Below are positions 2,814 through 14,171 of a stretch of 64,000 nucleotides of DNA, piece after piece. The notes below the pieces were generated by a model. That model made no database searches, was not told the origin of the DNA, and worked only from the letters and a program-made list of their open reading frames with translations. Each line of letters opens with the position of its first letter. Within the stretch, counting starts at the first letter, position 1. The DNA lies in assembly GCA_016790165.1 (NCBI GenBank), contig JAEUPL010000013.1:62001-126000 (forward strand), in the 5' to 3' direction. Source of the stretch: Burkholderiales bacterium. GTDB taxonomy: Bacteria > Pseudomonadota > Gammaproteobacteria > Burkholderiales > Casimicrobiaceae. Position numbers and translations under genes: made by a program.

Positions 2814-3662
2814 TCACGGACGGCGTCCTACAAATACCTGAACCGGACTGGCGCATTTCCACGCCGCCGGATCTTGTCTATATTGCTGCAATAGCCGGTC
2901 AACTGCAGACCGGGTGAGGAAGTCGACGAACGGCATCGGGTGTGGGCGACCGCTGCGGAGGTAACCGTCGGCGTCGCGATCGGTCTCAGGCACCGTGCGA
3001 CGGATGATCCCAAGCAATTCCTCGTGGAGAGCGCGGAGCACCGGCGCATAGCTCTCCCAGCCGCAATCACCGAGCATCGACACCCCCATGCTTGCGGCGC
3101 GCAGCGACTGGTACCGCTCCAGCTCGGAGCTCGCGAGAGCCAGCTCGTGCGGTGCATCTGTCCAGTCGATGCGCTCGTGGGCACCGGCGTTGCGACTGAA
3201 CGCGTCGGCTCGCGCGTTGGTTGGATACCACTGCGCAATGGTCTGGAGGCCACGCAGGTCGGTGCGATACCCTGGCTTGAAGACAGCGATCACCGGGAAA
3301 CGGTCGCGACGCACTCCAGGGGGCGCCTTCGCCTGCTGCCAACCGGGAACAATAAAGAGGCCCGTCTCGTTGGTCGTGACGGCGAAACTACGTAATTGCT
3401 CCGCAGTTACGTGTCCACCACCCAGTGACCCCGCAGCGGTCGCGTAGTAGCCGTATACGAGGGCGCCGGAAATCGGTGCTTTCGTCGTGGCATCAATGAT
3501 TTTTCCGCTGACCGTCGGCTCAACAATCGCTGCCGTGGACGCGCCTGCACCCATCACTCCCAGGCAAGCCGCGAGCGCAAGCGCCGCGCGATTGCTGGGC
3601 GTGCCGCGTCGCGTCGCGCGGCGGCGAACTCGGAGGACAAGACGCGAAAAAGGGGCACGCAC
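2814..3662 (-). CDS. Exported protein with a carboxypeptidase-regulatory-like domain
   Basis: The product has 282 residues. It begins with a very basic n-region and a hydrophobic segment (ALALAACLGVMGAGAS), consistent with export. Residues 47-130 (VSGKIIDATTKAPISGALVY ... FIVPGW) have the pattern of the transthyretin/carboxypeptidase-regulatory-like beta domain, common in extracellular carbohydrate- or peptide-interacting proteins. The rest has no family I recognise and lacks a visible catalytic motif. It ends 5 nt before the start of the phospholipase-like gene and begins 10 nt after the dockerin-like gene ends, so the three probably form one operon of secreted proteins. Confidence 0.6.
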   Translation of the reverse strand: MRAPFSRLVLRVRRRATRRGTPSNRAALALAACLGVMGAGASTAAIVEPTVSGKIIDATTKAPISGALVYGYYATAAGSLGGGHVTAEQLRSFAVTTNETGLFIVPGWQQAKAPPGVRRDRFPVIAVFKPGYRTDLRGLQTIAQWYPTNARADAFSRNAGAHERIDWTDAPHELALASSELERYQSLRAASMGVSMLGDCGWESYAPVLRALHEELLGIIRRTVPETDRDADGYLRSGRPHPMPFVDFLTRSAVDRLLQQYRQDPAAWKCASPVQVFVGRRP

Positions 3663-3672
3663 CGCGGCGCCT

Positions 3673-4449
3673 CTACATCGAGTCCACGCGCCAACTACCG
3701 TCGGCCATGCGCAGCAAGGTCACCAGATGCACTAGGCGTTGCCCAGTGGTGCTTCCGATGACCGGCACGCTGACCCAGTACTCCGCGATGTCGTTTTGCA
3801 CCAGTCGCGGCACCAGTTGACTGTAGCTGGCAATGAGCGCGGGCAAGTCTGTCGCGATTGCAGTGAGCGCGTCGGCATAATTTTCGACGGCCGTGTCGGT
3901 CATGTATTGCTTGGCGGCATTCACTCCCGCTGCGGTGCCAAGCGCGAGCTGCGCATTCATCGCATTCCACACCGTAATGCCGACCTGTGGATCCGGGCCG
4001 ACGACGCAGCCATTGTCCAGGAAGGCCTGGAGTTCCGCCCCAGTTTTTCGAACGGCATTCGCTGTTGCGGTGTACCCGGACATCAGTGCGTCACCGCGGA
4101 AACCGAACAGGTGGCGCGCGATGACAATGATGTCAATCGTTGAGATCACGCCATCGCCATCAACGTCCAGCCCGAGTCCGACCGACTGGAGGTAGGTCGC
4201 CACGTCGGAATCCGTTGCTCCCGGGTGCACCGCATTGGTGACACGGCTCGGCCCGGACAAGCCGCGCAAGGTGCGCAGCAGAATCAGGGCGTCGGTCGTC
4301 CCGGTTGCGGTGGACGGACCATGCTGGTCGGCGTTGAAATTGCACGCCGCATGAATCGTCGGCGTCGCCGCGAGCAACGTGAGCGTGGCCAACACGGTAG
4401 CCATGCGGTGAGGCAGACGCTTTGGGAATCGCAATCGACAGTCGTGCAT
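3673..4449 (-). CDS. Exported dockerin-type-I-like calcium-binding protein
   Basis: The product has 258 residues, with a signal peptide (ATVLATLTLLAATPTIHAA). Residues 35-115 hold two copies of a dockerin-like calcium loop and helix: a degenerate first copy (CNFNADQHGPSTATGTTDAL) and a well-formed second copy (DVDGDGVISTIDIIVIARHL, with Asp at loop positions 1, 3 and 5). In clostridia such pairs bind cohesins; in proteobacteria, isolated dockerin-like proteins occur without cellulosomes and their partner is unknown. The remaining 140 residues resemble no family I know. It is the first gene of the three-gene exported set running to 409. Confidence 0.6.
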   Translation of the reverse strand: MHDCRLRFPKRLPHRMATVLATLTLLAATPTIHAACNFNADQHGPSTATGTTDALILLRTLRGLSGPSRVTNAVHPGATDSDVATYLQSVGLGLDVDGDGVISTIDIIVIARHLFGFRGDALMSGYTATANAVRKTGAELQAFLDNGCVVGPDPQVGITVWNAMNAQLALGTAAGVNAAKQYMTDTAVENYADALTAIATDLPALIASYSQLVPRLVQNDIAEYWVSVPVIGSTTGQRLVHLVTLLRMADGSWRVDSM

Positions 4450-4796
4450 TGGAGGGCTCTAAGAGTTTCGTTTCCGCCCGTGGTGCACGAAGGTGCAGCG
4501 AGCAGAACGCGTTGCCGATTCTACGGAACCAATCGCTGCACCGATACCGCAGCGGACGCAAAGCGATCCGTCTGCGATGTGCGGTGTCGTACAACACACA
4601 AAGACGCTCTGGAATGCCCCTCAATTCAGACTGATCTGAAGCGACGGTGGTGGCCGCAACGATTCACGCAAACCGCGCGTCGTCAGCACGCGTTCAATTT
4701 CGCGTCATCCGACCACGTTGTGGCATGCGGGTGTCAATCCAATGCGAAGCTCGCGCAGATCGCACGCGCGAGGCACCCGCGCGCATGCGCAGTGCA
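4450..4796. other. Intergenic region, nothing identified
   Basis: These 347 bases separate the start of the dockerin-like gene from the end of the FAH gene, both on the minus strand. The stretch should contain the promoter of the exported-protein operon, but I cannot place -35/-10 boxes with confidence. No tRNA, convincing terminator or plausible small gene was seen. Confidence 0.4.
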
Positions 4797-5660
4797 TTAA
4801 CCTGCTTTCGGCGGCGAAAACTTGACGACCGATTGCCTGGCGTCGCCCAGCTTGTCGATGCCGAGGGTGATGACGTCGCCCGCCTTGAGGAAGGTCGCGG
4901 TCGGCTTCTTGCCCATTCCCACACCGGGTGGCGTGCCCGTGGTGATGATATCGCCGGGTTCGAGGGTCATCAGCGTCGAGCAGTACGCAACGATGGTGGC
5001 AACGTCGAAAATCATGGTCTTCGTGTTGCCGGTCTGCTGGCGCACGCCGTTCACATCCAGCCACATGTTGAGTTTTTGCGGGTTGCCCACTTCGTCCGCC
5101 GTCACCAGCCAGGGGCCGATTGGACCGAAAGTGTCGAAGCCCTTGCCCTTGTCCCAGGTCATGCCACGCTCAATCTGCCATTCGCGCTCCGAGACATCGT
5201 TCACGAGGCAGTAGCCGACCACGTGGTTCAGCGCGTCTTTCTTGCTGACGCTGCGGGCGCGGGTGCCGATGACGACGCCGAGCTCCACTTCCCAGTCGGT
5301 TTTGACCGAACCCTTGGGCAACATCACGTCGTCGTTCGGCCCCTGAATGCAGCTCGTCCATTTGTTGAAGACGACCGGCTCTTTCGGAATCGGCAGGTTC
5401 GATTCGGCGGCATGGTCTGCGAAGTTGAGGCCAATCGCCACGAATTTGGCGGGGCGCGCAATCGGCGGGCCAAGACGGGTCTTGGGCTTCACCAACGGCA
5501 GCTTGGCCGGATTGATTTTCGCGATCTTGGCCAGCACCTTGGCGGTCAGGTGCTCGCCATCCCAGTCGCTGATGAGATCAACGACCGAGCGGACGTTGCC
5601 ATCCGCGTCGATGATGCCGGGCTTTTCCTGCCCGGGTTTGCCGTAACGTACTAGTTTCAT
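4797..5660 (-). CDS. Fumarylacetoacetate hydrolase family protein, possibly 2,4-diketo-3-deoxy-L-fuconate hydrolase
   Basis: The product has 287 residues, the usual size for FAH-family enzymes, which cleave C-C bonds of diketo acids with a divalent metal. Family features are visible: KFVAIGLNFADHAAE, then VFNKWTSCIQGPND, the acidic metal-binding DWEVELGVVIG, and the C-terminal GDIITTGTPPGVGMGKKP. The next gene upstream encodes an SDR dehydrogenase resembling 2-keto-3-deoxy-L-fuconate dehydrogenase; in Xanthomonas and Burkholderia such a pair performs the last steps of non-phosphorylative L-fucose degradation, yielding pyruvate and lactate. The family is established; the substrate is an inference from that pairing. 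Confidence 0.85.
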   Translation of the reverse strand: MKLVRYGKPGQEKPGIIDADGNVRSVVDLISDWDGEHLTAKVLAKIAKINPAKLPLVKPKTRLGPPIARPAKFVAIGLNFADHAAESNLPIPKEPVVFNKWTSCIQGPNDDVMLPKGSVKTDWEVELGVVIGTRARSVSKKDALNHVVGYCLVNDVSEREWQIERGMTWDKGKGFDTFGPIGPWLVTADEVGNPQKLNMWLDVNGVRQQTGNTKTMIFDVATIVAYCSTLMTLEPGDIITTGTPPGVGMGKKPTATFLKAGDVITLGIDKLGDARQSVVKFSPPKAG

Positions 5661-5676
5661 TGCTTCTCTCCGAAAA

Positions 5677-5878
5677 AGGACGACGCGCCTTCGGCGCTAG
5701 GACGACGGCCAGCTTCGCGGCCTAGGACGGGACCGAACTAGAACAGAACAGACAGGACAAAAGGAAAATACTTTGCGCACCTGATTGGCCAACATCAAAC
5801 AAGACACACTGCCCACCTTTGCGTCATTCGTCCTAGGCGCGAAGCGCCGTCGTCCTAGCGCCGCAGGCGCGTCGTCCT
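5677..5878. repeat. Large inverted repeat between the FAH and SDR genes
   Basis: A 30-base arm at 5677-5706 (AGGACGACGCGCC...) is the reverse complement of 5849-5878 with a single mismatch. Similarity extends inward (GGCCTAGGACGG near 5722-5732 against CGTCCTAGGCGCGAAGC near 5829-5845). Each arm also contains smaller GC hairpins. In the mRNA the arms could fold into a stem of about 50 bp enclosing an A/T-richer loop with the FAH leader. The CGTCCTAG and CGTCATTCGTCCT words recur near 15950, 19380, 19490 and 24510, so this belongs to a dispersed repeat family. Confidence 0.75.
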
Positions 5879-5891
5879 CGATTTGACGCAG

Positions 5892-6632
5892 TCAAATCGT
5901 AATCCCGCCATCAATCATGTAGGCGTTTCCTGTTGCGAACGCTGATTCATCCGAGGCGAGAAAAACGACCAGTGGCGCAATTTCTTCTGCTTTCGCTAGG
6001 CGCCCCATGGGCTGACGCGACACAAACATCTTGCGCGCCTCGTCGATGTCACCCAATGCCGCCATGCGATCATGCAGCGACGGCGTATCGACCGTGCCGG
6101 GGCACACGGCATTGCAACGAATGCCGCCCTTCACGTAGTCCGCCGCAACACTTTTGGTCATGCCGATGACGGCAGCCTTGGTGGCGCCGTAGACAAAGCG
6201 GTTCGGCAGCCCCTTGATACTGCCGCAGACGCTGGCCATATTGATGATGGATCCGCCACCGTTGGCCACCATGCGCGGCAACGCCGCCTGTATCACCTTG
6301 AATGGGGCGCGAACGTTCAGATTGAACGAAAAATCCCAATCCTCGTCATGCGTCTCCATGATCGTGCCCTGATGCACGAAACCGGCGCAGTTGAAGAGAA
6401 TGTTGAGCGGCGGCAGGCCTTCGATGGTGAACTTGATCTGCAAGTCGTCAAGGACATCCAGTTTTTGCGCCACGATGCCCGGGTGGTCGTTGAGCGACTC
6501 CAGCAGTTTGAGGTTCACATCGGTGGCATAGACCGTGGCGCCTTCGTTTGCCATCGCCAGCGCGGACGCCCGGCCGATGCCTTGCCCGGCGGCGGTGACC
6601 AGCGCCACCTTGCCTTTGAGTCTGTCTCCCAT
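5892..6632 (-). CDS. SDR-family dehydrogenase, probable 2-keto-3-deoxy-L-fuconate dehydrogenase
   Basis: The product has 246 residues and is a classical short-chain dehydrogenase: the Rossmann motif TAAGQGIG at residues 13-20, NCAG at 81-84, a catalytic Ser near 134, and Y148-x3-K152 (YGATK). The ATG at 6632 is preferred to the upstream one at 6704 because it follows an AGAGGATC ribosome-binding sequence and starts right before the cofactor fold. The sequence resembles the DHRS6/BDH2-like group that includes bacterial 2-keto-3-deoxy-L-fuconate dehydrogenase, which makes the diketo acid cleaved by the FAH protein downstream. The large inverted repeat at 5677-5878 lies between the two genes. 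A different hydroxy-acid substrate is possible. Confidence 0.8.
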   Translation of the reverse strand: MGDRLKGKVALVTAAGQGIGRASALAMANEGATVYATDVNLKLLESLNDHPGIVAQKLDVLDDLQIKFTIEGLPPLNILFNCAGFVHQGTIMETHDEDWDFSFNLNVRAPFKVIQAALPRMVANGGGSIINMASVCGSIKGLPNRFVYGATKAAVIGMTKSVAADYVKGGIRCNAVCPGTVDTPSLHDRMAALGDIDEARKMFVSRQPMGRLAKAEEIAPLVVFLASDESAFATGNAYMIDGGITI

Positions 6633-6781
6633 GTGATCCTCTGATTGTTGTTCGCAGGTCGGCTGCCACCACGCCGCATGGCGACCAGGCACACCCTCGC
6701 GCATCGGTACCGATCACGCGGTAGCAGCCGATTATAGGAACGACGTAGCATTAGCAACTCGACAGATTTCGCTTGATTAAC

Positions 6782-8329
6782 ATGCATTCCGCGAGCCCGC
6801 CGCCCTTCGCAACGCCGACGATTCGCCTGCATCCCGCCGACGACGTCGTGATCGCTCGTGTTCAGCTGATGTCCGGGGCGACGCTCGCCAGCGAAGGCGT
6901 CACGGTGAAAGGGATGATTCCGCCAGGGCACAAGGTGGCAACGCGGAACATCGCTGTCGGCGCCCCGGTTCGCCGGTACAACCAGATCATTGGTTTCGCC
7001 AGCAAACCCATCGCGGCCGGCGAGCATGTGCACGTCAACAACCTTGCGATGCGCGATTTCGAACGCGACTACGCGTTTTCGGTCGACGTCCGCCCGGTCG
7101 CGCCCGCGGTCACGCCAGCGATGTTTCTCGGTATTCAGCGCGCGGATGGTCGAGTCGCCACGCGGAATTACATCGGCCTGCTCTCCACGGTGAACTGCTC
7201 AGCGACGGTTTGCAAGCTCATCGCCGACCATTTCCGGCCCGGACCCAACTCGCCACTCAACGCCTTCCCGAATGTCGACGGCGTGGTTGCCATTACGCAC
7301 TCGGTGGGCTGCGGCATGGATGTCCATGGCGAAGGCATGGCCCTTCTGCGCCGTACGCTCGCCGGTTATGCGCGGCACGCTAACTTTCACTCGGCGTTGG
7401 TGATTGGCCTCGGCTGCGAGGGTAACCAGATCTCCAGCTTCAAGGCGGCAGAAGGTCTGGACGATGGCCCCACGCTGCACAGCTACAACCTGCAGGACGC
7501 GGGCGGTACAGGCAAGGCCGTTGCCAAAGGTATCGCACTGGTCAACGAATTGCTGATTGAAGCCAACAAGGTCTCGCGCCAGCCGGTCTCCGCCGAGCAT
7601 CTCACCGTGGGCTTGCAATGCGGCGGAAGCGACGGCTACAGTGGTATCAGTGCCAATCCCGCGCTCGGCGCAGCGGTGGATTTGCTGGTGGCGCATGGTG
7701 GCACCGCGATCCTTTCGGAGACGCCGGAAATCTATGGCGCCGAGCACCTGCTGACGCGCCGTGCCGTATCGCGCGAAGTCGGTGAAAAGCTCGTGGCGCG
7801 CATCAAGTGGTGGGAAGAATACACGGCGCGACTCAAAGGCGAGATGAACAACAACCCGAGTCCAGGCAACAAGGCGGGCGGGCTCACGACCATTCTCGAG
7901 AAGTCACTCGGTGCGGTGGCCAAGGGCGGCACCACACCGCTGGTGGATGTGTACGAATACGCGCAGGCGGTGCGCCAGCACGGCTTTGTGTACATGGACA
8001 CACCGGGCTACGACCCGGTCAGCGCGACCGGGCAGGTTGCCGGTGGCGCCAACCTGATCTGCTTCACCACCGGCCGCGGCTCGGCTTACGGCTGCAAACC
8101 GTCTCCCTCGCTCAAACTGGCCACCAACAACGCGCTGTGGTCACGCCAGGAAGAGGATATCGACATCAACTGCGGCGATATCGTCGACGCGGGCGTGTCC
8201 ATCGCGGACAAAGGCCGCGAAATATTCGAACATATGCTCGCCACCGCGTCGGGGCAACCCAGCAAAAGCGAGCGCTGGGGCTATGGTGCTGACGAATTTG
8301 TGCCCTGGTACATCGGGGCCGTGATGTAG
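6782..8329 (+). CDS. UxaA-family sugar-acid dehydratase (altronate/galactarate dehydratase-like)
   Basis: The product has about 515 residues. It has an N-terminal SAF-like domain (residues 15-95) followed by the UxaA core, with Cys residues likely to serve as iron ligands in the segments NCSATVC, SVGCGMD, LQCGGSDGYSG and YGCKPSP. UxaA-type enzymes dehydrate altronate or related aldonates to 2-keto-3-deoxy acids. Its divergent pairing with the SDR and FAH genes suggests it supplies the 2-keto-3-deoxy acid of that pathway. A TTG at 6773 is also in frame; ATG at 6782 is preferred although no strong ribosome-binding site is visible. The stop overlaps the GTG start of the exporter adaptor gene (TAGTG). 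Confidence 0.85.
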   Translation: MHSASPPPFATPTIRLHPADDVVIARVQLMSGATLASEGVTVKGMIPPGHKVATRNIAVGAPVRRYNQIIGFASKPIAAGEHVHVNNLAMRDFERDYAFSVDVRPVAPAVTPAMFLGIQRADGRVATRNYIGLLSTVNCSATVCKLIADHFRPGPNSPLNAFPNVDGVVAITHSVGCGMDVHGEGMALLRRTLAGYARHANFHSALVIGLGCEGNQISSFKAAEGLDDGPTLHSYNLQDAGGTGKAVAKGIALVNELLIEANKVSRQPVSAEHLTVGLQCGGSDGYSGISANPALGAAVDLLVAHGGTAILSETPEIYGAEHLLTRRAVSREVGEKLVARIKWWEEYTARLKGEMNNNPSPGNKAGGLTTILEKSLGAVAKGGTTPLVDVYEYAQAVRQHGFVYMDTPGYDPVSATGQVAGGANLICFTTGRGSAYGCKPSPSLKLATNNALWSRQEEDIDINCGDIVDAGVSIADKGREIFEHMLATASGQPSKSERWGYGADEFVPWYIGAVM

Positions 8330-9639
8330 TGACTGCTGAGCGCGATGAAGCACTGAAACCCGCGTCGCCGCCACCGGCGAGGGAGTCGGCCGTGGCGCGT
8401 GCGCAGCTCTATCGCAAAGAGGCGATCGCGCACCAGCGTGAACGCGCATGGGGACAGTTGCTGGTTTCCACGCCCCGCCCGGCACGGTGGTTCACGCTGG
8501 TGGCTGCGGCGCTCGCGTTGGGCTTCGTTGCATTCATTCTCACGGCCGAGTACACGCGCCGCGCCCGTGCACCCGCGGTGCTCGCGTACGTGAACGATCC
8601 TGTGCTGGTGGCAGCCACCGAGCCCGGGATGCTGATGTCGGTGGAGGTCAAGGCGGGGGACGTGGTGAAGGCCGGGCAGCGACTGGCGACGGTGTCGACT
8701 GAACGGACAGCGGGCGGCGAGGCGGTGTTCGCTGCCGGCGAACGCGATGCCGAGACGCGCCGGCTGGCGATCCGTGCTGAGCGCAAGCAGGCCCGCGTAT
8801 TGCTCGGCGCGCAGGAGGCGCAGCAGCGCGCGCGGATTGACGCCATGACCACCGAGGTGGCGCAACTCGGGCGTGAGATCGATACCCAGAGCGATCGCGT
8901 CACCGCGCTCAAAGGCCAGGTAGAACGCTATCGGCAACTGGCGCGCGAGAAGTTTGCGCCCGAGCTTCAGGTGCAGCAGAAGCAGGACGACCTCGCCGAG
9001 CAGGCGGTGAAACTCGAGTCCCTCAAACGAACGCGAGCAGGCATTGAGCGCGATTTGGCTGTGGCGCGCGCCGAGTTGCCCACCCTGCGAGCGACGACCG
9101 AAGGCAAACTGGCCACCCTGGCGCGCGACGAGGCTCAACTCACGCAAACTGCGCGCGAGAACCTGGCGCGTCGCGCTTATGACATCACCGCGAGCAGCGA
9201 CGGGACGGTCGAACGTGTGATTGCCTTTGCCGGGCAGACGCTCGCCACCGGGGCGCCCGTGTTGCAGGTGCAAACGGGTTCGCGCCAGTTGCTCGCCGAC
9301 ATCTACGTGCCCACGCGCGCTGCCGGTTTTCTGAGCACCGGGCAAGCGGTGCGCCTGGCGGTGGACGCATTTCCGATGGAGCGGTACGGGCACGTGACGG
9401 CCACACTCGCCGACGTCGGCCGCGGCGTGCTGGCACCGGGCGACGCGGGCGTACCTGCGACGGTGCGTGAGCCGGTGTTTCGGGCGCGCGCAACGTTGAC
9501 ATCTACCGAAGTCACCGCCTATGGCGAGCGCTGGCCCCTGCGCAGCGGCTTGACCGCTCAGGCGGACATCGCGCTGGACCGACGCCCGCTCTACCTCTGG
9601 TTGGTCGAGCCGATTCTCCGGTTACGGGGGCGACTGTAA
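8329..9639 (+). CDS. HlyD/CvaA-type membrane fusion protein of a peptide exporter
   Basis: The product has 436 residues: a cytoplasmic N-terminus, one membrane segment at 53-75 (WFTLVAAALALGFVAFILTA), a lipoyl-like half motif (TEPGMLMSVEVKAGDVVKAG), a long coiled coil at about 120-270, then the second half (DGTVERVIAFAGQTLATGAP) and a beta-barrel. This is the adaptor that joins an inner-membrane ABC exporter to an outer-membrane channel; the CvaA group works with C39-peptidase transporters. Its GTG start overlaps the uxaA-like stop by one base, and its stop overlaps the ABC gene start (TAATG), so translation of all three may be coupled. No outer-membrane TolC gene is in the window. Confidence 0.88.
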   Translation: MTAERDEALKPASPPPARESAVARAQLYRKEAIAHQRERAWGQLLVSTPRPARWFTLVAAALALGFVAFILTAEYTRRARAPAVLAYVNDPVLVAATEPGMLMSVEVKAGDVVKAGQRLATVSTERTAGGEAVFAAGERDAETRRLAIRAERKQARVLLGAQEAQQRARIDAMTTEVAQLGREIDTQSDRVTALKGQVERYRQLAREKFAPELQVQQKQDDLAEQAVKLESLKRTRAGIERDLAVARAELPTLRATTEGKLATLARDEAQLTQTARENLARRAYDITASSDGTVERVIAFAGQTLATGAPVLQVQTGSRQLLADIYVPTRAAGFLSTGQAVRLAVDAFPMERYGHVTATLADVGRGVLAPGDAGVPATVREPVFRARATLTSTEVTAYGERWPLRSGLTAQADIALDRRPLYLWLVEPILRLRGRL

Positions 9640-11708
9640 TGGCAACGCTCAATTTCCGCCACCGCCGCGTCCCCCTCATCATGCAGACCGAGGCCGCGGA
9701 GTGCGGTCTGGCCTCGCTGGCGATGGTGGCTGGCTTCTACGGGCTGGTCTCCGATCTGCAATCCATGCGCCGCGAACATGCCGTGTCGCTCAAGGGCTCA
9801 ACACTCAAGAGCCTGATGGACATCGCCGCGAGCATGCAGCTCGGCACTCGGCCACTGCGCGTGGAGCTTGCCGCGCTTTCGCGCGTGCGGTTGCCGGCCA
9901 TCGTGCATCTCGACTTCAATCACTTCGCGGTGCTGACCGAAGTGACACCCCGCAGCGTCACGCTGAACGACCCGGCGCGGGGCACGCGTACGCTCTCGCT
10001 CGACGAATTTTCCAAACACTTTACCGGCGTGCTGCTGGAACTCACACCGACTGCGGCTTTCCAGCGCGGTCGGGTGGGCGAACGCTTTTCGATCACGCAC
10101 ATCGTTACGTCGGCACGTGGCATCAAGGCAGCACTGGCCCGCCTGCTGGCGCTGGCGCTCGCCTTCGAAGTGTTCGCACTCGCAACGCCCTGGCTGATGC
10201 AACTCACCGTTGATGAGGTGTTGGTGTCGGCGGATCGAGACTTGATGACGGTGCTGGCCGTGGGTTTCGCGCTGCTGGTGTTGGTGCAAACCGGCATCGG
10301 CGCGTTGCGCGGCTGGCTGTTGCTGCACCTGACGAGCACGCTGTCGCTCCAGGTGCTCACGCAGCTCTTCTCCCATTTGCTGCGCTTGCCGCTGGCCTTT
10401 TTTGAGAAGCGCCACGTCGGCGATCTGCTGTCGCGCTTCGCCTCGATGGACGCCATCCAGCGCACATTGACCGGCAGTTCGCTGGAAGTGCTGATCGACG
10501 GTGCGCTGGCGGTGTTGATGCTCGGCGTGATGCTGATCTACAGCACGCCGCTCACGCTGGTCGTGCTTGCGGTCGCACTTGCCTATGCGTTGCTGCGCTG
10601 GTGGCTATTCCGCCCGCTGCGTGAAGCGGTGAATGAGCAACTGGTATTCGCCGCGACCCAGCAGACGCAGTTCATCGAAAGTTTGCGCGGCGTGCAGACG
10701 ATCAAACTGCATCGCGGCGAGGCCGATCGGCTCTCGCGCTGGCAGAACGCGGTGGTCGACACCCTCAATGCGGGCATCCGCGCGCAGACCCTCACGCTGG
10801 GAGGGCGCTGGGCGAGCTTTGCGCTGTTTGGGCTGGAGAACGTGCTGATCGTGTGGCTCGGCGCGCGTGAGGTGATGGCGGGCGGCTTCAGCGTGGGCAT
10901 GCTGCTCGCATTCCTCGCCTACAAACTCGTGTTTGTCAGCCGCCTCTCGAATCTCATTGACAAATTCGCCGAGTTCAAACTGCTGGATTTGCACGCCGAG
11001 CGCGTGGCCGATGTGGCGCTCGCCGAAGCGGAGTCGCGCGGCGAAGCCCCGGCCCCCGACCTCGCGCGCGCGACCTGGGTGATTGAAGATTTGGGTTTTC
11101 GCTACGGCCCGCACGACCCCTTTGTTTTTCGTCACGTCAGCTTCACGGTGGCGCCGGGCGAAAGCGTTGCGCTGACCGGAAAGAGCGGCGCCGGCAAGAC
11201 GACGCTGGCGAAGGTGGTGGTCGGTCTGCTGCCGGCCACCGAGGGGCGCGTGCTGATAGACGGCCTCGACATTCGCGATATCGATCCCACGAGCCTGCGC
11301 GCGCAGCTCGCCGCCGTGATGCAGGAGGACTATGTGTTTGCCGGATCGATTGCGGACAACGTGAGCCTCTTCGATCCCGAGGTGGACGACGCGCGCGTCA
11401 CGCAATCGCTGCAGGCTGCCGGGCTCTGGGACGAAGTGAACCGCATGCCGATGGGCAGCGACTCGCTGGTGGGCAACACCGGCAGCGCGCTGTCAGGCGG
11501 CCAGCGCCAGCGGCTGTTGCTGGCGCGCGCGCTCTACCGGCAACCACGCTTCCTGCTGCTGGACGAGGCGACCAGCGCCCTCGACAACGAACGCGAACGC
11601 ACGGTGAACGAATCCGTACGCGCCCTCGGCATCACCACGCTCATCATCGCGCACCGTGACTCTACGGTGGGGATGGCGGGGAAGCGGGTGGGGTTGGGTG
11701 CGGTTTAG
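9639..11708 (+). CDS. Peptidase-containing ABC transporter (C39 protease, membrane domain, ATPase)
   Basis: The product has 689 residues. An N-terminal C39 peptidase carries all expected catalytic residues: Q16 and C22 in MQTEAAECGLASLAMV, H96 in FNHFAVL, D113 in LNDPARG. A six-helix exporter membrane domain follows (about 165-440), then an ATPase with Walker A GKSGAGKTT near 514, signature LSGGQRQR near 617 and Walker B LLLDEATSALD near 637. Such proteins cut double-glycine leaders and export the peptide (ComA, CvaB, LagD). Its stop overlaps by two bases the stop of the last of three convergent double-glycine peptide genes, the obvious substrates. Confidence 0.93.
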   Translation: MATLNFRHRRVPLIMQTEAAECGLASLAMVAGFYGLVSDLQSMRREHAVSLKGSTLKSLMDIAASMQLGTRPLRVELAALSRVRLPAIVHLDFNHFAVLTEVTPRSVTLNDPARGTRTLSLDEFSKHFTGVLLELTPTAAFQRGRVGERFSITHIVTSARGIKAALARLLALALAFEVFALATPWLMQLTVDEVLVSADRDLMTVLAVGFALLVLVQTGIGALRGWLLLHLTSTLSLQVLTQLFSHLLRLPLAFFEKRHVGDLLSRFASMDAIQRTLTGSSLEVLIDGALAVLMLGVMLIYSTPLTLVVLAVALAYALLRWWLFRPLREAVNEQLVFAATQQTQFIESLRGVQTIKLHRGEADRLSRWQNAVVDTLNAGIRAQTLTLGGRWASFALFGLENVLIVWLGAREVMAGGFSVGMLLAFLAYKLVFVSRLSNLIDKFAEFKLLDLHAERVADVALAEAESRGEAPAPDLARATWVIEDLGFRYGPHDPFVFRHVSFTVAPGESVALTGKSGAGKTTLAKVVVGLLPATEGRVLIDGLDIRDIDPTSLRAQLAAVMQEDYVFAGSIADNVSLFDPEVDDARVTQSLQAAGLWDEVNRMPMGSDSLVGNTGSALSGGQRQRLLLARALYRQPRFLLLDEATSALDNERERTVNESVRALGITTLIIAHRDSTVGMAGKRVGLGAV

Positions 11709-11827
11709 CCGTACATCTGCGCGGCTTCGCCGCCACCAACTAGCATCGTCTCTTGGTCGCGCAGGAGTTCAATGGCGGGGTCGTTGGCAAGAATTTCAAG
11801 AAGTTGGTTGATTGATTGTTGGCTCAT
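11705..11827 (-). CDS. Double-glycine leader peptide, copy 3 of 3 (promoter-distal)
   Basis: A 40-codon gene. The leader starts MSQQSINQLLEILANDPAIE, continues LLRDQETMLVGG, and ends in GEAAQMYG, identical to the ends of the two neighbouring peptides. With cleavage after the last Gly of the GGG run, the leader fits the usual register (L at -12, E at -8, V at -4, GG at -2/-1), leaving EAAQMYG; cleavage one residue earlier leaves GEAAQMYG. A weak ribosome-binding sequence (CCGGAA) precedes the ATG. The stop TAA overlaps the stop of the convergent ABC transporter gene. Length and C-terminus match the copies at 11886 and 12068, which supports a real gene despite its size. Confidence 0.85.
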   Translation of the reverse strand: MSQQSINQLLEILANDPAIELLRDQETMLVGGGEAAQMYG

Positions 11828-11885
11828 GATTAATTCCGGCTGAGTATCTGGCGATAGGGACAAATAGCGGGCGCGTGTGGGCTGG

Positions 11886-12008
11886 TTAGCCGTACATTTG
11901 CGCGGCTTCGCCGCCTCCGACGACCATCGCTTCCTGGTCGCAGAGGAGTTGGATAGAAAAGTCGTCAGTGGGCACTTCACCAGGTTGGTCGATCGCTTGC
12001 ATATTCAT
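11886..12008 (-). CDS. Double-glycine leader peptide, copy 2 of 3 (divergent leader)
   Basis: A 40-codon gene of the same length as its neighbours, beginning MNMQAIDQPGEVPTDDFSIQ, continuing LLCDQEAMVVGG and ending in the same GEAAQMYG. The helix-forming LLEILA of the other leaders is replaced by PGEVPT, and R23 by Cys, so peptidase docking may be weakened, yet the last eight residues are unchanged although their codons differ. No good ribosome-binding sequence is visible before the ATG, so expression may depend on coupling or be low. It sits between copies 1 and 3 with spacers of 59 and 58 nt that contain no obvious terminator. Confidence 0.8.
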   Translation of the reverse strand: MNMQAIDQPGEVPTDDFSIQLLCDQEAMVVGGGEAAQMYG

Positions 12009-12067
12009 GGTCGTTTGTAGTGGCGTAAATATTGACAGTTGGGTTAGGAGAGGGTTGTGAAATCTTG

Positions 12068-12190
12068 CTAACCGTACATCTGTGCGGCTTCGCCCCCACC
12101 GACGAGCATTAACTCTTGGTCGCGCAAGAGCTGGACGGACGTATCTTCGGCGAGGATTTCCAAAAGTTGATCGATTGCCTGTTGGCTCAT
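12068..12190 (-). CDS. Double-glycine leader peptide, copy 1 of 3 (promoter-proximal)
   Basis: A 40-codon gene beginning MSQQAIDQLLEILAEDTSVQ, continuing LLRDQELMLVGG and ending GEAAQMYG. The leader fits class II double-glycine consensus best if cut after the third Gly (L at -12, E and L at -8/-7, V at -4). AAGGA lies 6 nt before the ATG, the best ribosome-binding site of the three. It is the first gene downstream of the 91-bp divergent promoter region shared with the TPR/HD-GYP gene. The predicted product of 7-8 residues is far shorter than bacteriocins and in the size range of RRNPP-type signalling peptides; function is inferred. Confidence 0.87.
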   Translation of the reverse strand: MSQQAIDQLLEILAEDTSVQLLRDQELMLVGGGEAAQMYG

Positions 12191-12215
12191 GGTCGTTCCT
12201 TTTCGATGGCTTGAG

Positions 12216-12265
12216 TGATGTCGTGAAACACGGCGCAGTAATTAAGATAAATTATGACGACATCA
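12216..12265. promoter_or_regulatory. Perfect 9-bp inverted repeat in the divergent promoter region
   Basis: TGATGTCGT (12216-12224) and its exact reverse complement ACGACATCA (12257-12265) lie in the 91-bp gap between peptide copy 1 (minus strand) and the TPR/HD-GYP gene (plus strand). The half-sites are centred 41 bp apart, close to four helical turns, and the DNA between them includes an A/T-rich stretch (TAATTAAGATAAATTATG) suited to -10 elements. One half-site lies 26 nt upstream of the peptide start and the other about 17 nt upstream of the HD-GYP start, ending just before its AAGGA. It may be an operator controlling both genes, or a hairpin in the HD-GYP leader. Confidence 0.5.
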
Positions 12266-12281
12266 TAAGGAAAAGCAAAAT

Positions 12282-14171
12282 ATGGAACGCGCTGCGCTGA
12301 TGGGATTGCTTGATACCTGCGTTCAGGATCTGGACAGCGAAGGACTTGGCGATCTGCTCCCAGAGTTGAAGGAGCACTTGCCGGGACTATTGCAGTCGTC
12401 GGATGATGGCGATTTCGATACGTTGTCTCGTGCGGCGAGATTGATCAGTTTCAGCTCCAAACCCGAACCAGTTCCCGTTGCAATCTCGATCTTGCTGGAT
12501 ATTTCGGCTGCGCACGTTCCCCGCGGTCGCGTCGCTGATGCGTTGCCGTTCGCTGAACGCGCCCATGACCTCGCAGAGGACCACGACTTGAAGCCTGAGT
12601 TGCGACGCGCCAGTAGTGTTTACGCGGCGTTGAGCACCGAGGCTGGCGCGCCCTCTCGTGGACTTGAGTACGCAACCAAAGCTGCGCGAATCGCGCGTGA
12701 GTTGGGCGACCGAGTTAGCACAGCGATGGCGTGCGTAAACGTAACTGCGGCCTTGTTTAGTATGGGCCTGTACCGCGAGACCATCTCCGTTGGCCTCCGC
12801 ACGATTTCGGAGTTCAAGGACTACTCCGATTGCGCACTTTGTGTGGCGAACACGCGTTCAAATATGGCGAACGCGGCTTTGGCTATGTCGCACTTCGCGT
12901 TGGCCGCAGACGCGGCCCGCGAATCGGTTTCTGTCCTGGGGCTGCCTCGTGACGCTATCAGTTTGTTGAATCGCGTAATCGCTGAGACTGTTTGGATGAA
13001 AGCTGCTATCGGTTTGGAGCAGCGCGCTGTGGTTGACGAACGCATTGCATTCATCCGCAGTATTTCGGCAGCCTTCAAAGCACCACGTCTCCAACTAAAT
13101 CATCAGCTCGCGGAGGCGGGATACGAGATGTACGCCGGCGACCTAACCGTTGCTGTGGCAAAACTGATGGAGTTACTCAAACACACGAAAGCAATCCCGA
13201 ATCTGTATCGCGATAACCTCGCCATGCTCGTGCGGGCATACGAGAAAGCGCAGGACCATGCTGGGGCATTGATTTTTCTTGGGGAGCTGGTTGAATTTTT
13301 GCGAGAAAAACAGGTCGCCGCGGTTAAGGCAGGCCTAGCGTCGATAGAAGCACGACACACTACGTTGCTACCTGGTAAAGATGATGTGCGCGACGTCATC
13401 AAGGCAATACAGCAAACCGTGCCCGGAGCGTCCTCCAGGAATGTTCGCAACACCACTAAGGGAGAGGTGCCGGAGCGCGAGTATCGAGAAGCGTTCGAGC
13501 GACTCGCTGTTTCCGCCGAACTAAAAGAAGACGTCGGTGGCCGCCACGCGTATCGCATGGGGCGACTGGCGGGTTTGTTGGCCGCGAAGTTGGGCTATGA
13601 CCGCAAGTTCTGTGACGAGGTTGAGAAAGGCGCTCGCCTGCATGACATCGGCAAGCTGGGCATTCCGGACGGCTTGTTGTTGAAGTCTGGTGAGCTCACG
13701 CCGGCCGAGTGGACCGTGATGAAGCGACACACGCTGATTGGTGCGCAGATCATTCGCCAGTGTCCGCATCCGGCATTTCGTGTTGGCGAGCAGATTGCTC
13801 TATGTCATCACGAGAAGTGGGATGGATCGGGCTATCCCAAGGGGCTGCGCGGTGACAACATCCCGGTGCCCGCGCGCATCGTGATGCTTGCTGATGTGTA
13901 TGACGCACTGACACACGCACGGCCCTACAAACACGCATGGACGCATGAAGACGTGGTGGCCTACATTCTTGATCGTGCGGGATCGCAGTTTGACCCCACG
14001 TACGCGCGGCTATTCGTCGGCATGGTGGACGCGCTGCGCCGCGAGCACGGCGACAAGCTCGATGACTACCTGGCCGAACCGAGCAAGGCATCGAGCTTTA
14101 TTCAGGCGCGTGATCGCATGCAGGAGATGCTCTCGGAGATGGCACCGCTGCAGCCGGGAGAATTCCTGTAG
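12282..14171 (+). CDS. TPR-like sensor protein with C-terminal HD-GYP phosphodiesterase domain
   Basis: The product has 629 residues and is soluble, with no signal peptide or membrane segment. Residues 1-390 are all helical with TPR-like repeats (for example GLEYATKAARIARELGDRVS and the repeats after it), as in peptide-sensing Rap/PlcR/NprR proteins. Residues 420-610 form a complete HD-GYP domain: the HD motif in RLHDIGKLGIPDG near 453-465 and HHEKWDGSGYPKGLRG near 508-523, so c-di-GMP hydrolysis is expected. There is no receiver domain; the TPR part stands in the sensor position. AAGGA at 12267 precedes the ATG. Divergent from the exported-peptide genes, it is the best candidate receptor for their product (inference). 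Confidence 0.88.
   Translation: MERAALMGLLDTCVQDLDSEGLGDLLPELKEHLPGLLQSSDDGDFDTLSRAARLISFSSKPEPVPVAISILLDISAAHVPRGRVADALPFAERAHDLAEDHDLKPELRRASSVYAALSTEAGAPSRGLEYATKAARIARELGDRVSTAMACVNVTAALFSMGLYRETISVGLRTISEFKDYSDCALCVANTRSNMANAALAMSHFALAADAARESVSVLGLPRDAISLLNRVIAETVWMKAAIGLEQRAVVDERIAFIRSISAAFKAPRLQLNHQLAEAGYEMYAGDLTVAVAKLMELLKHTKAIPNLYRDNLAMLVRAYEKAQDHAGALIFLGELVEFLREKQVAAVKAGLASIEARHTTLLPGKDDVRDVIKAIQQTVPGASSRNVRNTTKGEVPEREYREAFERLAVSAELKEDVGGRHAYRMGRLAGLLAAKLGYDRKFCDEVEKGARLHDIGKLGIPDGLLLKSGELTPAEWTVMKRHTLIGAQIIRQCPHPAFRVGEQIALCHHEKWDGSGYPKGLRGDNIPVPARIVMLADVYDALTHARPYKHAWTHEDVVAYILDRAGSQFDPTYARLFVGMVDALRREHGDKLDDYLAEPSKASSFIQARDRMQEMLSEMAPLQPGEFL

Follow-up and report, generated by a model that had tools for sequence, protein, structure and literature searches.

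What do three tandem mini-genes, a peptide exporter and a divergently transcribed TPR/HD-GYP protein do together in the genome of a Burkholderiales bacterium? They lie in the 64,000-nucleotide stretch analysed here (the window; contig JAEUPL010000013.1, positions 62,001-126,000). Their order is a membrane-fusion protein (MFP) gene and a peptidase C39 ABC exporter gene on the plus strand, three peptide open reading frames (ORFs) on the minus strand, and a divergent candidate receptor gene on the plus strand. Our comparisons point to a real, conserved, pheromone-like module of peptide, exporter and receptor, and the locus probably constitutes a self-contained exported heptapeptide pheromone system that is sensed by a TPR-HD-GYP phosphodiesterase. 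In the literature surveyed here, including PMC10075063, the reading of short linear peptide pheromones by TPR receptors in the cytosol counts as a trait of Gram-positive bacteria (Firmicutes). If our interpretation is true, a system of this type has been assembled from other parts in a Gram-negative bacterium.

The three peptide precursors have 40 residues each and share the C-terminus VGGG/EAAQMYG, in which the slash marks the predicted cut after the third Gly. Copies 1, 2 and 3 are located at 12068-12190, 11886-12008 and 11705-11827 of the minus strand, respectively, as 123-nt units with a spacing of 181 and 182 bp, and were assigned from their ORFs and the leader and tail pattern. Copy 3 appears in the ORF list as a 91-residue ORF from an upstream GTG, and the ATG at 11827 gives the 40-residue form. 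Copy 1 is separated from the receptor gene by a divergent intergenic region of 91 bp, as delimited by the ORF borders (12191-12281). The original prediction, made from the sequence of the window, described three tandem 40-codon double-Gly genes with a shared GEAAQMYG end and, 91 bp away, a divergent protein with TPR-like and HD-GYP parts. The ORFs are where it placed them, and the HD-GYP domain was recognized by Pfam and the TPR fold by structural modeling. No sigma-70-like site was found across 11650-12400, which includes the divergent region.

In the part of PMC6363468 cited here, a co-crystal of a C39 domain with a leader peptide places Val-4, Leu-7 and Leu-12 of the leader in the recognition groove. 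We examined this register in an unfiltered recount, which set no rule on leader residues, allowed tails of 3-14 residues and took ORFs that are divergent from a receptor gene and at most 2.5 kb upstream of it. The recount gave 54 unique ORFs ending in GGG plus a tail, with 38 distinct tails. Counted from a cut after the third Gly, position -4 is hydrophobic in 53/54, -7 is hydrophobic in 53/54 and -12 is Leu in 53/54, and the joint -4/-7/-12 register of double-Gly substrates is satisfied by 52/54. In the same ORFs, -15 is hydrophobic in 51 and -8 is Glu in 39. The tail after GGG has seven residues in 43/54 and six in 9/54 (6-7 residues in 52/54), with single tails of 10 and 13 residues. The exceptions are locus L063, whose 13-residue tail looks unrelated, the 10-residue tail, copy 3 of the window, which has Thr at -7, and the sixth copy in Betaproteobacteria bacterium GR16-43 (tail SGDTVWA), which has Ser at -4. 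Because the hydrophobic leader positions fall into the C39-leader register when the cut is placed after the third Gly, as first proposed for the window, this cut is favored over one after the second Gly, which would release GEAAQMYG and is less likely. The mature peptide is thus most likely the heptapeptide EAAQMYG.

For the control, 75 C39 loci were used, from which we excluded five that carry the system (L131, L137, L147, L155 and L177) and three that had been put aside in advance (L133, L144 and L170), in which there is no GGG ORF either. The remaining 67 loci (902,286 bp) contain 32 ORFs ending in GGG plus 3-14 residues. The -4/-7/-12 pattern occurs in 0/32 of them, and a chance origin of the leader-plus-tail pattern was rejected on this basis. 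A leader-pattern search of the control loci gave three weak matches. In the window's own genome, GGG-EAAQMYG-stop occurs three times, always at the window locus, and the reversed pattern does not occur.

A wider list, with 61 precursors and 44 different tails, includes arrays without a receptor on the contig. Its register and length figures were not used because they are partly imposed by the search pattern, which demanded hydrophobic residues at -7 and -4 and tails of 6, 7 or 10 residues; one window copy was added by hand. The list left out seven rows with tails of 3, 4, 8 or 11 residues, of which one, an eight-residue GGT variant from genome G146, adjoins a receptor, and two rows of 6-7 residues were dropped as unrelated (PRVGGA and RLTACFA). 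The G146 variant (L093/L147) ends in WVGGTSGCDNLGQ, with GGT in place of GGG, and is divergent from a TPR/HD-GYP gene of 582 residues with a C39 exporter nearby. At L102:10819-10956, one precursor with the ten-residue tail GGDVFVGTTH lies among seven-residue copies. Leader patterns also underlie the peptide sightings in the second family, the listing of C39 loci and the pairing count described below, and they can miss deviant copies.

How do the tails vary? Between genomes of the same genus, the last 12 leader residues have a mean identity of 50% and the tails one of 20% (13 of 14 genomes were compared; one leader reads partly N), and the tail starts with Glu or Asp in 14/14. Within the window array, the three pairs of copies show six synonymous and no non-synonymous differences in the tail codons, and 15 synonymous and 21 non-synonymous differences in 17 leader codons. 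A recent duplication was rejected for this array because the leaders have diverged while the tails differ only synonymously. Over the 18 arrays with at least two copies, whose pairs are not independent, the differences total 105 synonymous and 40 non-synonymous in tails against 189 and 300 in leaders, and a single tail is present in 10/18. The totals leave out pairs with N, with short leaders or with unequal tails, and they count L117 with only one of its two overlapping listings. A second array in G006 (contamination 4%), which is on another contig and may be foreign, was kept as an array of its own. On the whole, the within-array pattern is as expected under selection for a shared mature peptide. 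The tails behave like pheromones, being variable between species and mostly constant inside arrays.

The candidate receptor (12282-14171, plus strand, 629 residues) combines an N-terminal TPR superhelix with a C-terminal HD-GYP domain. In a Pfam search with this single protein, HD/HD_5 were the only domains found and no TPR family exceeded its cut-off (TPR_12, 0.0093), whereas TPR_12 matches 21 of the 28 N-termini in the receptor family. AlphaFold2 models the N-terminus, up to residue 358 or so (12282-13355), as a regular helical superhelix, with a mean predicted local distance difference test score (pLDDT) of 86.1 and a predicted template modeling score (pTM) of 0.82. For the full protein, the values are 85.1 and 0.80, with a low-confidence linker at residues 361-394. 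Among the 50 Foldseek matches listed are LGN, which is first by E-value, Rap proteins including RapJ and RapI, NprR and MalT; TM scores normalized to the query are 0.45-0.62 for Rap/NprR and 0.63 for MalT. In a profile search of PDB sequences, RapJ (1.3e-7) ranked after LGN and designed TPRs. The N-terminus is modeled confidently as a TPR superhelix, with Rap and NprR among the similar folds.

This superhelix is the putative peptide-binding part. RNPP receptors hold the peptide backbone via a conserved Asn, such as Asn227 of RapF, as described in the cited part of PMC3601957. Two residues of the window receptor, Asn153 and Asn194, are invariant in 28 receptor sequences, and we placed them at the position-6 Asn of the TPR on the concave face; this was assigned from the motif. 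The TPR region, whose pocket the original prediction had made a test, has a concave face with both invariant and variable positions. The mean identity over 12 receptors is 60% in the TPR part versus 74% in the HD-GYP part. The receptors of G007 and G010, which accompany different tails, are 93-100% identical over residues 271-390 and 30% identical at 31-60 and 181-210.

The HD-GYP domain (residues 414-573; 13521-14000) matches PF13487 (HD_5) at 2.5e-32 and aligns to the solved HD-GYP protein 4mcw at 3.3e-42. The HD, HHE and GYP motifs of HD-GYP phosphodiesterases are all present, and hydrolysis of c-di-GMP (cyclic di-GMP) is the putative activity. In the alignment to 4mcw, four positions ahead of the first conserved His, a Val stands in place of Glu, at what we take to be the site of the third-metal glutamate of the trinuclear HD-GYP type. 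The structure 4r8z also lacks a Glu there. This suggests a two-metal site in the receptor. A 343-residue protein at L060:1390-2421 (G412) is a relative of the TPR part only and has no HD-GYP motif.

The exporter (9639-11708, plus strand, 689 residues) matches Peptidase_C39 (7.7e-31), ABC_membrane and ABC_tran in Pfam. It is preceded by the HlyD-type MFP (8329-9639, plus strand, 436 residues, GTG start), which matches HlyD_3 (1.5e-13) and HlyD_D23 (1e-11) and has syntenic relatives, in line with the earlier claim of a C39 exporter and a membrane-fusion protein beside the peptides. The locus does not encode a TolC-like channel. Cys22, His95 and Asp111, presumably the catalytic residues of the C39 domain, are invariant columns in 12 aligned sequences. 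The original prediction had Cys22 right and gave the other two as H96 and D113, which become His95 and Asp111 when counted from the ATG at 9639. With a C39 domain containing these Cys, His and Asp residues, a transmembrane domain and a nucleotide-binding domain, the protein has the make-up of a peptidase-containing ABC transporter (PCAT).

Toxins or bacteriocins are the usual cargo of C39 exporters that have HlyD partners, and the best NCBIfam match of the window exporter is a bacteriocin-export model, although below its cut-off. The peptides could therefore be secreted as very short antimicrobials or as modified natural products (like microcins or ribosomally synthesized and post-translationally modified peptides), with the TPR/HD-GYP gene only regulating their production. 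We consider this improbable. Class II microcins and bacteriocins have a core of tens of residues, whereas 6-7 residues follow GGG in 52/54 ORFs of the recount. No modification or immunity gene was recognized by eye at the window locus, where the neighbors were not searched against families. Moreover, peptide-receptor pairs occur without a C39 gene in the fetched flank (L037:7228-9408, L039:6889-8637 and L117:5470-10087) and have other tails (TGHGSGV, EVVIGTK, SGIYLF and SGIFVLA). The receptor, not the exporter, is therefore the more constant partner of the peptides. For Gram-negative C39 exporters, functions beyond toxin export are described as probable but without evidence in the cited part of a 2024 paper (PMC10986499).

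Orthologues of the TPR N-terminus (46-60% identity) were found in 12/16 other genomes of the same genus and in 0/19 genomes of other genera in the family, and the exporter is 71-100% identical in 15/17 same-genus genomes, its own included. Among the 13 same-genus genomes that are at least 90% complete, 11 contain exporter and receptor and two contain neither. The syntenic row consists of MFP, C39 exporter, peptides, receptor and a metZ-like gene, the last being labeled by reading and not by a family search. The MFP, exporter, receptor and metZ-like genes are on one contig in 7/12 extended same-genus loci (L024, L027, L028, L030, L033, L034 and L035; the array is partly N in one). The other five stop at a contig border or, in G004, carry an exporter remnant beside the receptor. 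In that genome (L026:8695-10384), four intact-looking peptide ORFs and the receptor lie beside the C39 remnant, and a long open exporter frame is present on another contig. The peptide genes are kept beside exporter and receptor in relatives; a lack of such conservation, which the original prediction had named as its refutation, was not observed.

Beyond the genus, 15/399 genomes of an order-wide sample matched: five of the same genus, nine of a second family and one of a third family. In the second family, TPR homologues are present in 25/28 genomes, and GG peptides beside a receptor or exporter were seen in 14/28, one of them a GGT variant; GR16-43 (CP019169.1) belongs to this family and carries the system. 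Several other second-family matches are TPR proteins with LuxR-like neighbors and no peptide. In L052, L053 and L068, a TPR protein related to the receptor N-terminus adjoins a gene with a LuxR-like helix-turn-helix (HTH), as judged by reading, and no GG peptide was seen. The third family contains the same gene set in one genome. Among the best 80 C39 loci, GGG peptides are present in L122, L124, L125, L126, L131, L137, L155 and L177 and the GGT variant in L147, and one further same-genus locus has the receptor and an array that reads partly N. A sample of the class gave 2/369 matches, the own genome and one frame with internal stops. A sample of the phylum gave 3/398, the own genome and two histidine-kinase-like proteins with no GGG peptide in their short flanks. 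Because scoring in these two samples was limited to at most 4-5 candidates per genome, matches may have been missed.

Peptide and receptor genes are also paired. The loci read contain 44 distinct HD-GYP-type genes, counted as ORFs of 440 residues or more, and 28 of these are accompanied by a divergent GG-peptide ORF at a distance of up to 700 bp. One gene of the 44, L117:3502, matches the window protein in the HD part only.

We propose the following mechanism. Three precursors with double-Gly leaders would be made, and the C39 domain of the exporter would cut them after the third Gly. The heptapeptide EAAQMYG would be secreted by the ABC/MFP pair together with a TolC-like channel and would re-enter sensitive cells, most likely via an Opp/Dpp-type permease. 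It would then dock on the divergently encoded protein, at the concave face of its TPR superhelix, and docking would alter the HD-GYP phosphodiesterase, leading to local or global changes in c-di-GMP. The own genome has eight SBP_bac_5 (Opp/Dpp-type) matches and 13 GGDEF matches. We infer cleavage, secretion, import, binding, the effect on c-di-GMP and the control of a behavior; the architecture and its conservation, the leader register, the tail length, the tail variability with restraint inside arrays, the TPR fold and the HD-GYP motifs are read from the sequences. Of the earlier reading of a Gram-negative peptide signal that changes c-di-GMP, the conserved genes, the register and the pheromone-like tails have stood, whereas reception, re-import and the c-di-GMP effect are still proposals.

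As a second alternative, the receptor could read the precursor or the cleaved peptide inside the producer, as a monitor of export or production with no cell-to-cell step. Both the receptor and the C39 domain should reside in the cytosol, and inspection of the locus showed neither a dedicated importer nor an outer-membrane receptor. The variability of the tails between species at a conserved length, however, is hard to explain without strain discrimination, and the substrate-binding proteins of general peptide permeases exist in the own genome. Such an internal monitor appears about as doubtful as the antimicrobial explanation.

Several observations weigh against a pheromone that is sensed by the TPR/HD-GYP protein. 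More than one tail occurs in 8/18 arrays. In G005, six leaders are identical but their tails show 10 synonymous and five non-synonymous codon differences; recent duplication does fit some arrays other than that of the window, this one among them. Eukaryotic LGN and designed TPRs outrank Rap by E-value, so that the fold alone is not diagnostic, and helix-A positions on the concave face show, overall, no greater variability than the remaining helix-A positions (p 0.57). No divergent peptide was found for 16/44 HD-GYP-type genes. Seven of these are second receptors beside an array (L036, L102, L103, L104, L107, L108 and L109), three are truncated at the end of a contig or by N (L019, L051 and L030), and for six no peptide was found (L063, L117:3502, L118, L120, L121 and L209). 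In G008 and G014 (79-80% complete), exporter and peptides are present and no receptor was found, with contigs that end near the array. SBP_bac_5 genes are also present in the two genomes without the system, and binding and secretion of the peptide are themselves proposed steps.

Covariation of tail and receptor gives a similarly mixed result. Mantel tests were run on 11 same-genus and seven second-family pairs, with seven-residue tails and one tail per genome. The raw correlation between tail and TPR distances is significant in both sets (r 0.37, p 0.008; r 0.49, p 0.011). Beyond the HD-GYP distance, the partial r is 0.15 (p 0.15) in the genus and a marginal 0.40 (p 0.04) in the second family. 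Screens for covarying sites gave nothing firm. Arg274 was considered as a charge partner of the acidic first tail residue and rejected, because it tracks clade only and is replaced by Ala in two acidic-tail second-family receptors. These correlations over few pairs and the generic nature of the TPR fold would suit inherited synteny only, with the peptides serving the exporter for another purpose and the TPR/HD-GYP protein sensing something else, but this is very unlikely in view of the association maintained in two further families, the peptide-receptor pairs with no exporter gene in the fetched flank and the joint absence of exporter and receptor from two near-complete genomes.

How does the proposed pheromone module compare with known systems? 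The RRNPP(A) systems (Rap-Phr, NprR-NprX and PlcR-PapR) are alike in that a small propeptide gene adjoins the gene of a soluble TPR receptor and the mature signal is short. The candidate receptor is likewise a TPR protein of presumed solubility, as judged from its sequence, with the peptide gene adjacent (91 bp in the window; within 700 bp in 28/44), and Rap and NprR are among its fold matches. The output of RRNPP(A) receptors is an HTH or Rap-type module, whereas that of the window receptor is a C-terminal HD-GYP domain and not an HTH or Rap phosphatase module. The window system also differs in its Gram-negative host, its arrays of near-identical cores and, in some genomes, two tandem receptors. 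RRNPP(A) receptors have 250-500 residues, and their propeptides are exported by Sec or PptAB, according to the cited part of PMC10075063. The window receptor, with 629 residues, is outside that range, and its peptides, with a C39 double-Gly leader (register in 52/54), would probably not follow the Sec/PptAB route. The module appears to work like RRNPP signaling, yet the size and output of its receptor place it outside that group, as its export route probably does too.

Other systems share the export side. Streptococcal competence and bacteriocin pheromones also combine a double-Gly leader, a C39 exporter and a secreted linear peptide signal, but these peptides are longer and are sensed by membrane histidine kinases. 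The EbfG products of Synechococcus are likewise longer than the window peptides. In the EbfG/PteB system, GG-motif small secreted proteins need a C39-type peptidase transporter and are linked to biofilm formation, and the cited part of that paper mentions no TPR/HD-GYP receptor (PMC4997328). HetC of Nostoc is a PCAT proposed to export a signaling peptide; its substrate is described as unknown, with no double-Gly gene near hetC, and the cited part mentions no TPR receptor (PMC10986499), whereas the window exporter has adjoining double-Gly genes. Among the matches listed from the open literature, searched by titles and abstract starts with few subscription papers or preprints covered, no paper concerned a peptide receptor of the TPR-HD-GYP type or sensing in Proteobacteria that resembles RRNPP.

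We lean slightly towards a broader proposal, in which the locus represents a class of Gram-negative cytosolic quorum sensing. Strain-specific linear peptides of 6-7 residues, matured by C39 exporters, would directly switch TPR-gated HD-GYP phosphodiesterases, and the class would have evolved separately from RRNPP. If this reading is true, peptide signaling and c-di-GMP are joined in one protein, and peptide signals between cells act directly on c-di-GMP. The system is small enough to be tested readily, and its peptide occurs in dozens of natural variants, many of them encoded next to a candidate receptor.

Two further arrays deserve mention. In L201 (Undibacterium pigrum, NZ_QJKB01000002.1; about 3617-9249, minus strand), where no HD-GYP or GGDEF ORF was flagged, eight small double-Gly ORFs surround a C39 exporter; their tails begin with AGGPE and represent a different peptide array. 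A second TPR/HD-GYP gene often accompanies the array in the second family, as in the loci with second receptors listed above, and one peptide set may feed two receptors. In GR16-43, a single array (L103:6680-7664 and L047:227-367) encodes at least four tails (CGDVIWG, GGDIHWG, GGDIVWG and SGDTVWA), perhaps representing more than one signal for two receptors.

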